64,000 nucleotides of DNA from Pseudomonadota bacterium (lineage in GTDB: Bacteria > Desulfobacterota > Desulfobacteria > Desulfobacterales > Desulfolunaceae). Below, in pieces: positions 26,045 through 32,232 of this stretch. Within the stretch, counting starts at the first letter, position 1; each line of letters opens with the position of its first letter. The translations under genes and the position numbers were made by a program. The DNA is taken from contig JAHIRD010000012.1 in NCBI GenBank assembly GCA_018818835.1, forward strand, positions 1-64,000. Direction: 5' to 3'. The notes under the pieces were generated by a model. That model searched no databases, was not told where the DNA came from, and worked only from the letters and a program-made list of their open reading frames with translations.

Positions 26045-26203
26045 TCTGGTGCTGATATTTCAGAGGGTAGTGGGTCACGGGTTAGAGTTGCGTTAAATGA
26101 TATCCGTGCTATTTTCCATCGACCCCACCCTGAAAGAGTGACAAACAAGGGAGCCGTTAAATCTGTAAGACGATTTCTGCAAGAGGCGGGGGTGAGATTA
26201 TGA
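26045..26203 (+). pseudogene. hicA: 5'-truncated hicA toxin gene
   Basis: The C-terminal part of a HicA mRNA interferase is recognisable (S-G-A-D-I-S-E-G-S-G-S-R-V-R, then F-H-R-P-H-P and K-G-A-V-K-S-V-R-R-F-L). The first 35 or so residues, including the catalytic His region, are missing. Upstream sequence in the same frame, open from a GTG at 25970, has no HicA similarity and comes from the REP-like palindrome and unrelated DNA, so the N-terminal half was replaced. The fragment overlaps the hicB start by 4 bp as in intact hicAB operons. It is most likely inactive. Confidence 0.75.
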
Positions 26204-26538
26204 TGGAATATAAAGGATATTTTGCAAGGGTTGCGTTTGATGACGAAGCCAATATTTTTCATGGCGAAGTTATCAATTTGCGTGATGTAATTACCTTCGA
26301 AGGAGAATCGGTTAATGAACTGCGGAAGGCGTTTACTGATTCAGTCGAGGACTACTTGGAATTTTGTGCTGAACGTGGTGAGTATCCTGAGAAGCCTTAC
26401 TCTGGAAAATTCTTAGTTCGTGTTGAGCCTGAACTCCATAAAATCCTTGTTATACAGGCACGAAAAAATGGCAAGAGTCTAAATTCATGGGTAAATGATG
26501 CGCTTAATAACGTGGTGAAAACCTGTATTCATCAATAA
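26200..26538 (+). CDS. hicB: HicB family antitoxin
   Basis: Antitoxin and repressor of a HicAB toxin-antitoxin module. The N-terminal half is the degenerate RNase H-like HicB fold (Y-K-G-Y-F-A-R-V-A-F-D-D, F-H-G-E-V-I-N-L-R-D-V-I-T-F-E-G) with the helix L-R-K-A-F-T-D-S-V-E-D-Y-L. The C-terminal part (F-L-V-R-V-E-P-E-L-H, then N-G-K-S-L-N-S-W-V-N-D-A) is a ribbon-helix-helix DNA-binding domain. The length, 112 residues, is normal. Its toxin partner is truncated, so the antitoxin is an orphan here; it could still bind other HicA proteins. Confidence 0.9.
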   Translation: MMEYKGYFARVAFDDEANIFHGEVINLRDVITFEGESVNELRKAFTDSVEDYLEFCAERGEYPEKPYSGKFLVRVEPELHKILVIQARKNGKSLNSWVNDALNNVVKTCIHQ

Positions 26539-26728: not shown

Positions 26729-29700
26729 CTAATGATGCCCATTCATGGCCTGTACTATTTTCTCCCCGATTTTTTCAGCGGACAGGCCGAACAGGTCATC
26801 CATTTTCAAGAGTTCAAGATGTTTGTCATCCCAGTTTACGCCGCCTTCCTGGACAATATTACGGATACGTTCGTGCTTGCCGCCCAGGGCTTTGACCTTG
26901 GTGAACAGGGGCAGGTGCTCATCCTTGAAATACACGTTGATGGACAGGATATTTTCGATCATGCTGGTGGTTTTTGAAATGATGGGGATGGACAGGATAT
27001 TTTTGTTGTCTTTGAGTCCTTTCCCGATAAACACATTCCCTTCTCGAGCAATGATGCTCTTGGTCCCTTTGAGACGGTTATCTGTTTCCACCCGGGACGG
27101 GATGGATTCGAAAATGCCTTCTTTTTTGATGACCTGAATACTGGTCTGGGGGCCGGCTTGTCCCAGAAGACTCAGGTTGTTGATCTGGTAGATCACAAGA
27201 CCGTTGATCCCCTCAATGACTCCCTGCAGATTTCTTAAAACAAGAATATTCGAGCTTGTCAGCTGGGACAGGGCGATGCCGTTCCGATCCAGAATTTCAA
27301 ACAAGAGGCCTTCCACTTTTTCACTGATGCGGCTGGTGCCCACTGTGACGGTTTTGGCCTGGTGTTTGATGGCATCAATGGGACGGGCCATGCTGTTAAT
27401 GGAATCGTTCAGGCATTCAAACAAGGCATCAAGCATGTTCAAAGGTGTTCCTTTGATGGCAAAGTCCGTTTCAAAGTCCGCGACCGGGAGCTTACCGGAA
27501 AGATATTTTAAAATCAGGGTGAGATCCGAGGCGGTATTGAATCCGATGATGGTGGGCAGGGTCTTTTCACGGCGGCGTTTACGGAATTCATTGTAAAATC
27601 CCGTAATTTTCTCCCTGAATTTATTTTCGAGAAAAACCTCATACACATTCATACCCTTTTGTGCATAATCATCAATGATGGCGGTGATTTCTTCACGCTG
27701 ATTGAAGATGAATCGCGATCCTTCATTGATGGACAGGGCAGCATAATACCCCCAGATATGCCCGGCCAGAGTATTGACAATGGGCGCAAAATGTTCTCTG
27801 ACCACAGGGACATGGAAAACACTTTTGGCGTAGGGTGCAAAACGTTCTTCTCCCTGGTTGCAGATGACAATGGGCAGGGCTTTATGGGCATGGAAAATAG
27901 CCGTGTCCTTGATAATGTCTCCCAGAACACTTTCACGGGTTCCAGCTGCACAAACGATAATCAGGGGCTCCGAAGAAAGATCAATGTGTTTTTTGTCTTC
28001 CACGAAATCCGATGAAATTGTTTTGTAGCACAGCTCACTGAGTTTAATGCGTATTTCATCGGAGGACGCTTTATTGGATCCGCTGCCCACGGTGGCCCAG
28101 TAGGTTTTTTGAATGGCATAAGTACTGGCGGATTCCTTGATAAGGTCCCCCAGTTCCAGAACGCGTTTCATCACCTGGGGTAATTTGAGGATGTGCTTGA
28201 TTTCATCGGACACAAAGGCTTCGTCCTGTTTGCCTGTGATGGCGGCAATGTGCAGGCCTAAAATAGCACCGGCAACAATCTGTGAGTAGAAGGCCTTGGT
28301 GGACGCAACGGACATCTCGATATCTCTGCCGCTGCTGGTATAAATCACTCCGTTAACTTTGAAGGTCAGGTCCGAATCCCTGCGGTTGACAATAGCCAGG
28401 GTATGGGCACCTCTGACACGGACCATATCCACGGCCAGGTTGGTGTCCGTGGTGGTGCCGGATTGGCTGATGGCAATGACCAGGGTGTCTTTCATACTGT
28501 CCTGACCGTCTTTGTCATTCATCATAAATCCGGAAAATTCTGAGGCTTTGAGGGCGGTAATCTGAATGGCCGGGTCATTGATATAATGGGACATGATGCC
28601 TGAACAGGCCAGGGCTGCGACGCCGGCTGTTCCTTGACCCACAAGAAAAATTCGACGAATACGGTTTTCAGTAAATGCGCTTACGATGGATGCGGGAACC
28701 ACCCGTTCGTCAAGGCTGGTGACGTAGAGTTCTTTTTTCCCGTCTTTTTTGATTTTCCATCTGTTTCGGATCGTTTTTTCAACCGACAGAGGTGATTCGG
28801 TAATTTCTTTGAGAAAATAATGTGAAAAGTCTTGACGGTCAATGTCCCGTGAGGTGATCTGAGTTGTTTTTATATCCTTGTCCGTAAGAGTAATCGGGGT
28901 CCCGTCATAATACATGGCTTCAATACCGGAAACCATGGATGAACCATTCCGTTTGCTTTGATCCAGAATAAAAACTTGTCCCTGGGTTTTACCTGCCATG
29001 CCGTCAACAACTTTTTCTCCGTCCATTTTGATGAAATTGGGTGTTTCCTCAACAAAACCATAAACTTCAGAGGCTGATATAAAATGGTCTTTTGCGATTC
29101 CCACAAAAACAGCCTGGCCGCTACCTTTCTGGGCAAGAAAAAGTTTGCCCGGTGCCAGGTCCGTGTGCATCGAAATGGCATGGGACCCTTCGAAATTATT
29201 GAGGGCCTTTAAAAAGGCGTCTTTGATATTTGACCCGTTTTTAAGGTACCGTTCGATTTGCATGGGGATGATTTTTGTGTCTGTGGTGATTTCAGGCTGG
29301 AGTTTGTCGTAGCGGTCTTCATACTCTTCTTTCAGTGTTCTGTAGTTGTCGATATCACCGTTCAGACAGACCTGGATGATGCCGCTTTTTTCTGTTCTGC
29401 AGCCGCTTGTTTCATTGTCCACAGGGTGGCAGTTTGACTCGGTGATGGCACCCACAGAGGCCCAACGGGTGTGGGCTGATACCGTATGGTTTTGGAATGG
29501 ACAGGCAGCAAGTATTTGGAGTATTGGGTCACTGATGATTCGGTGACGGAGAAAATGAACGTTGTCCCCCAGTTTCCCGATTTCTGCAGCGACCTTGTAA
29601 GCAAAGGCAATGGACACAAGGTCGTTTTGGTTTTCGTCCTTAGAGTCGTGAATGGAGATGCAGTTGTTAAGGAGAACGTCTTTATTTGTTCTTATTTTAA

Positions 29701-30472
29701 GTTGTTTGTATATGGTGTCGTCGATAAGTTTTTTGCGGAAGGTCTCAAAATTATCTTTGGTCAGGGTGAAAAGAAGAGAGATCCCAGCCGAATCCCTGCC
29801 TCGGACTTCAAGGCGGTCCATGGCGTTCAAGACGCTATTTATTTTTTTGAATACATTGACACTGTCTTTGGAGGCTTTCCCATGAACAGGATGGATCAAT
29901 TCACGGATGCTTTGTATATTTGACGTGATCTCATTTTGAATACACCAGTGGGTATCCAAGAGACTTTCGATTCGCTCTGAAATGATGTCCACATCCGAAG
30001 GAGCAAGGGTTCCCGCATGGTGATCGAGGGATTTTTTTTCGGTTTTTATCAGAGAGTCCAGACGTTTGGCCAAGGTACCAAAGGATTTTTCAAGCCCTTT
30101 GTCAAAGAAAATCTCAATAAACGCCAGATCACGATTCATTTCCCGAGACGTGTTTCTCAATGCATTGACCTGGGAATCCCCGCCCAGATAGTGGCTGTTC
30201 AAGTCAAGTTTCTGGTCAAAGCATGGCCCAAAACCTTGTTTTTCAATGGAGTCCATCATGGCGCTTATGGCCTCCATGTCCACAGGATGGGAAAGGGGAT
30301 CGGCCTTGTGATACGTTACAATGCCTGAAAGACCACAGTTTAAACGCAAGGGGCTGTATGGGAAAAAGACAATGCATGATGTTCGGCCTTTGGGTTTTCC
30401 CATGGACACGGGAGACATCATAACCTGGGTGAACGCGTGTGAAAATTTCTTGAATAATGATATGCTTGTCAT
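26729..30472 (-). CDS. Giant GlmS-like glutamine-fructose-6-phosphate amidotransferase (1247 aa)
   Basis: Relative of glucosamine-6-phosphate synthase, twice its usual 600 residues. The Ntn nucleophile candidate is Cys46 in L-N-C-G-L-S-G-I-V, not residue 2, so a propeptide would have to be removed as in PurF. About 165 extra residues separate it from R-L-E-V-R-G-R-D-S-A-G (220-230). Then come H-T-R-W-A-S-V-G (334-341), N-G-D-I-D-N-Y (371-377) and H-Y-F-L-K-E-I (551-557). The first SIS domain has A-I-S-Q-S-G-T-T-T-D-T (667-677) and V-A-S-T-K-A-F (722-728). The second SIS domain keeps likely equivalents of the isomerase Glu (813) and His (829). After another insertion, A-K-T-V-T-V (1039-1044) matches the lysine-containing C-terminus of E. 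coli GlmS; some 200 unassigned residues follow. Probably makes UDP-GlcNAc precursors or a related aminosugar. Confidence 0.8.
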   Translation of the reverse strand: MTSISLFKKFSHAFTQVMMSPVSMGKPKGRTSCIVFFPYSPLRLNCGLSGIVTYHKADPLSHPVDMEAISAMMDSIEKQGFGPCFDQKLDLNSHYLGGDSQVNALRNTSREMNRDLAFIEIFFDKGLEKSFGTLAKRLDSLIKTEKKSLDHHAGTLAPSDVDIISERIESLLDTHWCIQNEITSNIQSIRELIHPVHGKASKDSVNVFKKINSVLNAMDRLEVRGRDSAGISLLFTLTKDNFETFRKKLIDDTIYKQLKIRTNKDVLLNNCISIHDSKDENQNDLVSIAFAYKVAAEIGKLGDNVHFLRHRIISDPILQILAACPFQNHTVSAHTRWASVGAITESNCHPVDNETSGCRTEKSGIIQVCLNGDIDNYRTLKEEYEDRYDKLQPEITTDTKIIPMQIERYLKNGSNIKDAFLKALNNFEGSHAISMHTDLAPGKLFLAQKGSGQAVFVGIAKDHFISASEVYGFVEETPNFIKMDGEKVVDGMAGKTQGQVFILDQSKRNGSSMVSGIEAMYYDGTPITLTDKDIKTTQITSRDIDRQDFSHYFLKEITESPLSVEKTIRNRWKIKKDGKKELYVTSLDERVVPASIVSAFTENRIRRIFLVGQGTAGVAALACSGIMSHYINDPAIQITALKASEFSGFMMNDKDGQDSMKDTLVIAISQSGTTTDTNLAVDMVRVRGAHTLAIVNRRDSDLTFKVNGVIYTSSGRDIEMSVASTKAFYSQIVAGAILGLHIAAITGKQDEAFVSDEIKHILKLPQVMKRVLELGDLIKESASTYAIQKTYWATVGSGSNKASSDEIRIKLSELCYKTISSDFVEDKKHIDLSSEPLIIVCAAGTRESVLGDIIKDTAIFHAHKALPIVICNQGEERFAPYAKSVFHVPVVREHFAPIVNTLAGHIWGYYAALSINEGSRFIFNQREEITAIIDDYAQKGMNVYEVFLENKFREKITGFYNEFRKRRREKTLPTIIGFNTASDLTLILKYLSGKLPVADFETDFAIKGTPLNMLDALFECLNDSINSMARPIDAIKHQAKTVTVGTSRISEKVEGLLFEILDRNGIALSQLTSSNILVLRNLQGVIEGINGLVIYQINNLSLLGQAGPQTSIQVIKKEGIFESIPSRVETDNRLKGTKSIIAREGNVFIGKGLKDNKNILSIPIISKTTSMIENILSINVYFKDEHLPLFTKVKALGGKHERIRNIVQEGGVNWDDKHLELLKMDDLFGLSAEKIGEKIVQAMNGHH

Positions 30473-30614: not shown

Positions 30615-31994
30615 TCATAAATGGTGTTGGTCCTGATCATGCTGGGCCAAAAGATGCTTGGTGTCATTCGTTTCAATCGGGGTTCCGAAATACTGTTTCA
30701 TAACCATGCGTGCATATTTGCATGCTTTGGTCCCTATGTATTTTTCATGCCCGACCAAAACGGATAGGGCGACTTTTCTGGAACCGTTTTTTTCTTCGGC
30801 GAATCCCACGAACCAGTCGATACGCACATCATGGTCCTTGTTGTAGATAGATCCGGTTTTACCACCGATATTGAGTTTTTTCAGAACCGGGTCTTTACGG
30901 AATCCACTAAAACTTTTTCGTCCTGTTCCACGTGTGATGGTGGATGCCATGAGTTTTTTGATGACAGACGATGTTTCAGGGCGGATGGCCTGACTGAGTT
31001 GATGAATACGTCCCGTGTAAATAATCTGGCCATCGTCATCGGTAATCTGATCAATGATTGACGGCTCAATGAACTGACCATCGTTTAGGATCGTACCCGA
31101 AAGCAGAGCACCGTGGAGGGGGGATAAAAGGGTATCCCTGTTAAATCCGCAGGCGATTTCAGCTAAATTGTAGGGCTCATCCGAAAGACTCATGGCGCTT
31201 TTGGCAAGGGGGGCCTCGAAGTGAATGTCACGATTGAATCCAAAGGAGTGCGCATATTTTTCAAGGGTGGTTTTCCCCAGATTCAAGGACCCGAGTTTCC
31301 CGAACACAGGGTTGACAGACTGTGCAAAGGAGTCAGCAAAACTGATTCTGTTGGTGTGCTTGTTGGTTTTGTCTTTGAGTTGACGCTTGTAGAGGGTATA
31401 TTTTCCCCCGTTGAATTTCATGCCCGAATGGGCATTGAGTCCGCATTTTTCTACGGCGGCCGCAGCGGTCACGATTTTAAAAATGCTGGCTGCAGGATAC
31501 TGGGTTGAAATGCAGGGATTGATAGAACTTTTAGAGTCGAAACCCGCCATGGCCAGGACTTTTCCTGATTCAGGATCCAGGACAACAATGGCTATATACC
31601 TGGGTTTGCCCCGGGTTAGTTTCTTTGTTCGCTCAAACTGGTCCAGAATATAGTTCTGGAGATCCATATCAATGGACGTGTCCACATGCAGGACTTTACC
31701 ATCCGTGTTAAGATCAAATCGTTTATTCCTGATATTGGCAAGGTCTTTGTCCTGAATAAGGCTTTGGACATCCAATTTGGTGATGGAAGACAGTGCTTCA
31801 TCAAGGATCGTGGGTGGGATGGAGGCCTGGAGACGTGACCCATCACGAAGACTGAGGCTGACTGCATAAAAGGCAATAATGAGCAGTGGAATAAAAAAAA
31901 GCAGTCTGGAAAGGCGTTTAAGCAGCTTTTTCCGTGCCGCTTTTTTTTTCATCGAGTCTTGCAGGTCTCGCCAACTTTGTCGTTCAATAATCAT
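30615..31994 (-). CDS. Penicillin-binding protein transpeptidase, membrane-anchored
   Basis: Class B-like D,D-transpeptidase cross-linking peptidoglycan on the periplasmic face. After a basic cytoplasmic start, one transmembrane anchor lies near residues 29-47. The serine active site is S-I-F-K (170-173), the second motif S-V-N (226-228) and the third K-T-G (379-381), all intact. The N-terminal pedestal domain is small, so the 459-residue protein is shorter than FtsI or PBP2. I start it at ATG 31994; a TTG at 32006 would add four residues. It lies just upstream of the GlmS-like gene on the same strand, suggesting a shared cell-envelope role. Confidence 0.88.
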   Translation of the reverse strand: MIIERQSWRDLQDSMKKKAARKKLLKRLSRLLFFIPLLIIAFYAVSLSLRDGSRLQASIPPTILDEALSSITKLDVQSLIQDKDLANIRNKRFDLNTDGKVLHVDTSIDMDLQNYILDQFERTKKLTRGKPRYIAIVVLDPESGKVLAMAGFDSKSSINPCISTQYPAASIFKIVTAAAAVEKCGLNAHSGMKFNGGKYTLYKRQLKDKTNKHTNRISFADSFAQSVNPVFGKLGSLNLGKTTLEKYAHSFGFNRDIHFEAPLAKSAMSLSDEPYNLAEIACGFNRDTLLSPLHGALLSGTILNDGQFIEPSIIDQITDDDGQIIYTGRIHQLSQAIRPETSSVIKKLMASTITRGTGRKSFSGFRKDPVLKKLNIGGKTGSIYNKDHDVRIDWFVGFAEEKNGSRKVALSVLVGHEKYIGTKACKYARMVMKQYFGTPIETNDTKHLLAQHDQDQHHL

Positions 31995-32232
31995 ATATAT
32001 TATCAATCTAAGCGTTTGTAAATACTGCTTAAAGGATGCTATGAAAGGCTAATGCAGCCAAATTGTACTGAATTTATGACTTAAGTTACCGTGAAAGTCA
32101 ATAAAATAAACGGTTATATGTCTGAAAATCCATAAAAGACAGGGTTTCCTGTTTCATATACCCTTGGGTACGTCACTAGTCATCATGGCGAAGCATGCTG
32201 TTTAAAAAATAAGCAGGATACATTCAAGTTGC

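Follow-up and report, generated by a model that had tools for sequence, protein, structure and literature searches.

A double-sized GlmS-like protein with a leader before its catalytic cysteine appears to replace canonical GlmS across most of a desulfobacterial order

A protein of twice the normal length, carrying its putative nucleophilic cysteine behind a conserved leader, appears from sequence to replace ordinary GlmS in a bacterium of the Desulfolunaceae and in most of its order. GlmS, which supplies glucosamine-6-phosphate (GlcN-6-P) for the cell wall, is essential and serves as a drug target. To our knowledge, it is otherwise nearly uniform, with a Met-Cys start and a catalytic tail at the very C terminus. 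Most of one order seems to have exchanged it for a version that breaks the rules of size, start and tail and keeps nearly all scored active-site residues. The gene lies in a window of 64,000 nucleotides (forward-strand positions 1 to 64,000 of contig JAHIRD010000012.1, assembly GCA_018818835.1; Desulfolunaceae, Desulfobacterales, Desulfobacterota), and its features are listed in Table 1.

We consider it probable that the long protein is the organism's GlcN-6-P synthase, made as a proenzyme that removes its own leader and equipped with added modules for regulation or assembly. The N-terminal Cys would hydrolyse glutamine and the ammonia would pass to the isomerase, which would convert Fru-6-P to GlcN-6-P; this product would feed GlmM and then UDP-GlcNAc.

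Table 1. Window coordinates of the long glmS-like gene and the parts of its product
Feature	Positions	Strand	Remarks
Long GlmS-like CDS	26729..30472	-	1247 aa plus stop, ATG start; open frame of 1247 codons
N-terminal leader (residues 1-45), putative propeptide	30338..30472	-	First part basic, moderately hydrophobic; helix predicted, low confidence
Conserved leader core (residues 20-45, -26 to -1)	30338..30415	-	[IV][YF]xG[KR]...SIVFFPxxxxxLx
Cys46 codon	30335..30337	-	Putative nucleophile and mature N-terminal residue; Cys in 79/79
Glutaminase insertion (~residues 57-210)	29843..30304	-	Probably helical; helical in low-confidence model
Glutaminase remainder	28913..29842	-	RGRDSAG, HTRWA, LNGDIDN, TTDTK; ~66-aa insert Arg224-His334; Pfam, NCBIfam and PDB matches
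Isomerase core, both SIS domains (residues 540-914)	27731..28855	-	GQGTA, SQSGTT, VASTKAF, EIRIKLSE, KKH
Insertion between second SIS domain and catalytic C-tail (residues 915-1028)	27389..27730	-	Helical in low-confidence model
C-tail motif RPIDAIKHQAKTVTVGTSR with Lys1040 (Lys603 of E. coli GlmS), inside the chain	27329..27385	-	
Tail after catalytic motif (residues 1049-1247)	26732..27328	-	Mixed beta/alpha, low-confidence model

The long protein retains the GlmS core

Profile matches place a class II glutaminase ahead of two SIS domains, the order found in GlmS (TIGR01135/PRK00331; PDB 2J6H and 4AMV; GFAT-1 6R4E). Pfam SIS matches the isomerase core in two stretches (4.8e-14), the TIGR01135 match runs to residue 913, and the closest solved structures in a PDB search were human GFAT-1 and E. 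coli GlmS. The window protein scores 238.6 bits with TIGR01135, short of the 418-bit cut-off, which no listed long member reaches, so pathway predictions that use this cut-off would report glmS as absent from these bacteria in error. Judged by its sequence, the long form very probably does the same job as GlmS, as a variant that its score and three structural rules set apart from the curated family.

The catalytic residues of GlcN-6-P synthase are Cys1, Glu488, His504 and Lys603 (PMC9272926). Among 79 proteins of the long family, 27 of 28 scored positions, comprising the active site and its neighbours, are invariant; the exception is the equivalent of Ser347, where either Ser or Thr occurs. 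Kept in all 79 are the glutaminase equivalents of Cys1, Arg26, Arg73, Trp74, Asn98, Gly99 and Asp123, together with those of isomerase residues Glu488, His504 and Lys603 (E813, H829 and K1040 in the window protein), which bears out the initial annotation's view that the catalytic residues are retained. The equivalents of Ser/Thr347-Gln348-Ser349, Thr352, Val399 and Ser401 are likewise shared with GlmS. Mean column identity is 61% over 29 members. Ser303, a phosphate-site residue of canonical GlmS, is replaced by Ala in the window protein; this substitution and the low TIGR01135 score speak against a GlmS function.

Known GlmS enzymes have 589-716 residues (PMC9272926), whereas most long-form orthologues in the order sample (55 of 58 genomes) have 1180-1280 mature residues. 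To locate the extra length, landmarks were counted from Cys and compared with L036, a canonical GlmS of 608 residues without Met from the same order. The Arg26 landmark moves from 26 to 179 (+153), HTRWA from 70 to 289 (a further +66), Asn98 from 97 to 326, Asp123 from 122 to 353, Thr302 from 302 to 570 (a further +37 between Asp123 and Thr302), Glu488 from 488 to 768, and Lys603 from 603 to 995 (a further +112 between Glu488 and Lys603); the Lys603 equivalent is followed by 207 residues, as opposed to 5 in L036 (+202). In total, the glutaminase of the window protein is longer by about 219 residues, a further 112 precede the C-terminal Lys and another 202 follow it. The landmark shifts lie close to the inserts of 165, 110 and 200 residues initially annotated in a GlmS of double size. 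Cys46, as numbered there, lies within CGLSG and is preceded by the Asn codon AAC, and the AKTVTV that ends the core occupies residues 1039-1044. That insertion map was accurate overall but overlooked the insert of about 66 residues between the Arg26 loop and HTRWA.

A conserved leader precedes the catalytic cysteine

The leader is present in 66 of the 79 members and aligns without gaps up to Cys over at least 26 residues. Conservation is strongest at Phe -9 (65 of 66), Pro -8 (66 of 66) and Leu, Phe, Ile or Met at -2 (66 of 66), with a fixed spacing of FP-x5-[LFIM]-x-C. Further out lie Gly -23 (55 of 66), Lys or Arg at -22 (57 of 66), Tyr or Phe at -25 and Ile or Val at -26; residue -1 is variable (Cys, Asn, Phe, Ala, Tyr or His). 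Leader codons are under purifying selection (dN/dS about 0.2-0.4 in the cases that allowed calculation), though the mature protein is constrained somewhat more strongly. No start codon stands directly before Cys46 in the window protein, the nearest possible upstream start being a TTG four codons away. In all 13 leader-less members, by comparison, ATG or GTG immediately precedes Cys, and in most of them a purine-rich stretch upstream of the start is a candidate ribosome-binding site. Such starts in proteins without the leader are what would be expected if an N-terminal Cys is needed and the leader is removed. The propeptide removal proposed in the initial annotation gains support from the conserved leader and from these starts, and the alignments indicate that the burial of Cys46 behind a leader is real. 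They leave a misassigned start barely credible: the TTG at -4 would offer an initiation site that leaves the leader untranslated, but the leader is conserved as protein, gap-free and with an excess of synonymous change, in 66 orthologues, and most orthologues have no start codon near Cys.

We propose that the protein is made as a precursor and that the 45-residue leader is removed between Asn45 and Cys46, which would free the Cys46 amino group. By analogy with PurF, removal is most likely self-cleavage. The PurF of the window's genome (L002, C159) itself has a 10-residue leader, MIDDERPRDE, before CGVFG. Class II amidotransferases with propeptides are known to process themselves, which counts against a separate protease as the agent of cleavage and against a leader whose main role is in targeting or assembly, for example as a basic amphipathic membrane helix, with the released protein working as GlmS. 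Such a role would suit the leader's helix region, which is moderately hydrophobic with a median net charge of +3, and the wide variation at -1 makes no simple self-cleavage rule visible. Pro -8 and Leu -2, however, stand at a fixed distance that suggests a fit to the enzyme's own active site, and the absence of the leader from several lineages implies that targeting is dispensable; we therefore regard a protease or targeting role as unlikely. Considered separately as a transmembrane anchor, the leader was rejected: one of 66 reached the usual hydrophobicity of membrane helices and 65 fell below it.

Since the encoded protein has its Cys inside the chain and exposure by cleavage is predicted from sequence, one could also picture a protein that keeps its leader, has a silent glutaminase and uses free ammonia. 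Every scored glutaminase residue is nevertheless invariant, with no sign of decay, and the orthologues that have no leader start precisely at Cys, which makes this highly improbable. The leader-less members comprise the f107 outgroup and others scattered through the tree, and well-supported branches force at least four gains or losses of the leader. With f107 as outgroup, the simplest history would be a single gain followed by repeated losses. This scatter provides natural experiments on Ntn enzymes gaining and shedding propeptides.

The catalytic tail lies within a C-terminal module

Canonical GlmS ends a few residues after Lys603, in a C-tail that is a mobile element between both active sites and whose last residue makes a salt bridge (PMC8041777). 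In the window protein the end of this tail runs on into a further domain, so the same movement is probably impossible. The tail is embedded in a C-terminal module of about 333 residues, in which the motif RP[IV]D.I.HQAKTVTVG.SR around the catalytic Lys is strongly conserved; most positions of the C-tail motif are invariant in 28 diverse members, and Ala1039-Lys1040 in 79 of 79. The glutaminase insertion is divergent, with Asp173 and Trp176 invariant in 28 aligned members.

Pfam and PDB searches returned no relatives of either the glutaminase insertion or the C-terminal module. Weak, generic helical PDB matches to the insertion were set aside, and Pfam and PDB searches did not bear out a visual impression that the tail is GAF-like. 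Structure models, built from two-sequence alignments (the window protein and L005) and used for rough secondary structure only, were of low confidence, with a mean pLDDT of 57.7 for the C-terminal module and 42.0 for the N-terminal half, the latter too poor to place the leader in the active site. The module model has helices N-terminal of the motif and a mixed sheet-helix part C-terminal of it, and a fold search with it gave zero matches at E < 0.001. Given the continued C-tail, the likely guess is that the insertions and the module regulate the enzyme or organise its assembly. We offer these roles only as a guess, although the added regulation suggested in the initial annotation is plausible.

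Long and canonical GlmS are mutually exclusive

The family was surveyed within one phylum, in an order sample of 58 genomes and a phylum sample of 394, alongside one contig scan. The long form occurs in 55 of the 58 order genomes. A further match, in G012, is a canonical GlmS; G012 is the only genome of the order sample with canonical GlmS over the cut-off, and it lacks the long form. Across the phylum sample the long form was again found in 55 genomes, 50 with the full form and five (family f107) with a relative of about 1135 residues. Canonical GlmS was found in 318 genomes and both forms in a single one (G215, L131), giving a Fisher p of 3e-47 with relatedness ignored. A standard glmS elsewhere in the genome, which the initial annotation had wanted sought, was not found in the window's own genome (98% complete).

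The switch between forms recurs at low rank. Genus g25 contains both forms, the long one in G029 and G381 and the canonical one in G364 (L163), and further switches occur inside families f87 and f107. G215, with both forms, and G364, whose genus mates have the long one, suggest recent exchange. The scan of genome contigs found one relative, L005 (43%), and viral contigs gave none. A literature search, mostly outside subscription journals, found no description of such a variant.

Neither form was scored in 22 genomes of the phylum sample, some of which have fragmented canonical matches. Six genomes in which neither GlmS form was detected (G026, G047, G290, G291, G345 and G378) are near-complete, and several retain c6, a gene described below; they may rely on salvage or a different enzyme, or their assemblies may have gaps.

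Long glmS shares its genomic context with canonical glmS

In relatives, long glmS adjoins the GlmM gene (604 bits against a cut-off of 448), and the window's own genome also encodes GlmM. Another neighbour in relatives is c6, a left-handed-helix protein distantly like the acetyltransferase half of GlmU. It is present in 49 of 50 full-form genomes, and among 49 genomes with coordinates, 20 have it no more than 4 kb from long glmS. The gene divergent from the c6-glmM pair is canonical glmS in L160-L162, whereas in L077 and L144 it is long glmS; c6, glmM and long glmS stand in one row in L133 and L135. The same genomic slot is filled by either GlmS form. In the window's genome, glmM and c6 lie together on a different contig from long glmS.

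Invariant residues, the missing canonical glmS, mutual exclusion and the glmM context together argue strongly for a working enzyme, as initially annotated. We do not favour the annotation's alternative of a different acceptor sugar, since no GlmS-like enzyme other than the long form was found in the window's genome, which has both glmM and a GlmU uridyltransferase. Transfer of nitrogen to another sugar phosphate, for a special cell-envelope sugar, could draw on the low identity to GlmS (about 26%), the Ser303 substitution and nearby envelope genes (PBP-like and LptD-like). It would, however, leave 54 of 55 long-form genomes without a GlcN-6-P synthase despite glmM in the window's genome and its linkage in relatives, and the Glu488, His504 and Lys603 equivalents are invariant; we consider it improbable.

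As a tentative extension of the proenzyme model, which we judge possible, long GlmS would be a zymogen in which leader cleavage by the enzyme itself, or its timing, gates glutamine use and the C-terminal module senses a metabolite such as UDP-GlcNAc. The wider UDP-GlcNAc route would also have been rebuilt, with long GlmS, a GlmU cut to its uridyltransferase half and a left-handed-helix protein beside GlmM.

We noted separately that GlmU consists of the uridyltransferase half only (about 250 residues) in the window's genome (C129: L146, L150, L156; C178: L148), as it does in most of the genomes sampled from the order. A separate 413-residue left-handed-helix protein (P0002) is encoded beside GlmM and occurs in 49 of 50 genomes with the full-form long GlmS; it may supply the acetyltransferase step.

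Relation to other amidotransferases

Among other class II amidotransferases, PurF (amidophosphoribosyltransferase) resembles the long form in a glutaminase whose Cys lies behind a leader; its acceptor domain is a phosphoribosyltransferase rather than SIS, and its leader is short and unrelated. The glutamate synthase large subunit, likewise a class II amidotransferase of large size, is also made with a propeptide but has a different acceptor half, without SIS domains.

A second giant GlmS-like protein of about 1500 residues is encoded in G015 and G044 (L164:996-5540 and L165:171-4664), with similar matches in G011, G028, G030, G043 and G049. It shares with the long form an Ntn Cys, SIS domains and more than twice the normal length, but it starts MCGIVAYFGG without a leader, and its identity to the window protein is only about 19% in the best-matching stretch. 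Genomes with this protein also carry long GlmS; it was not detected in the window's genome.

Other genes near long glmS or like it in part were also recorded. Adjoining it at 30618-32006 (-) is a short PBP-like transpeptidase of 463 residues with a weak PBP2 match, whose family recurs in 12 compared neighbourhoods, often with metG, ricT and holB. Just downstream of long glmS, at 26200-26538 (+), lies a 112-residue open reading frame that is HicB-antitoxin-like by eye. Elsewhere in the window's genome (L004, C238), an open reading frame of 804-872 residues has a class II amidotransferase-like N terminus with a buried Cys (EEGGCGVTGF).
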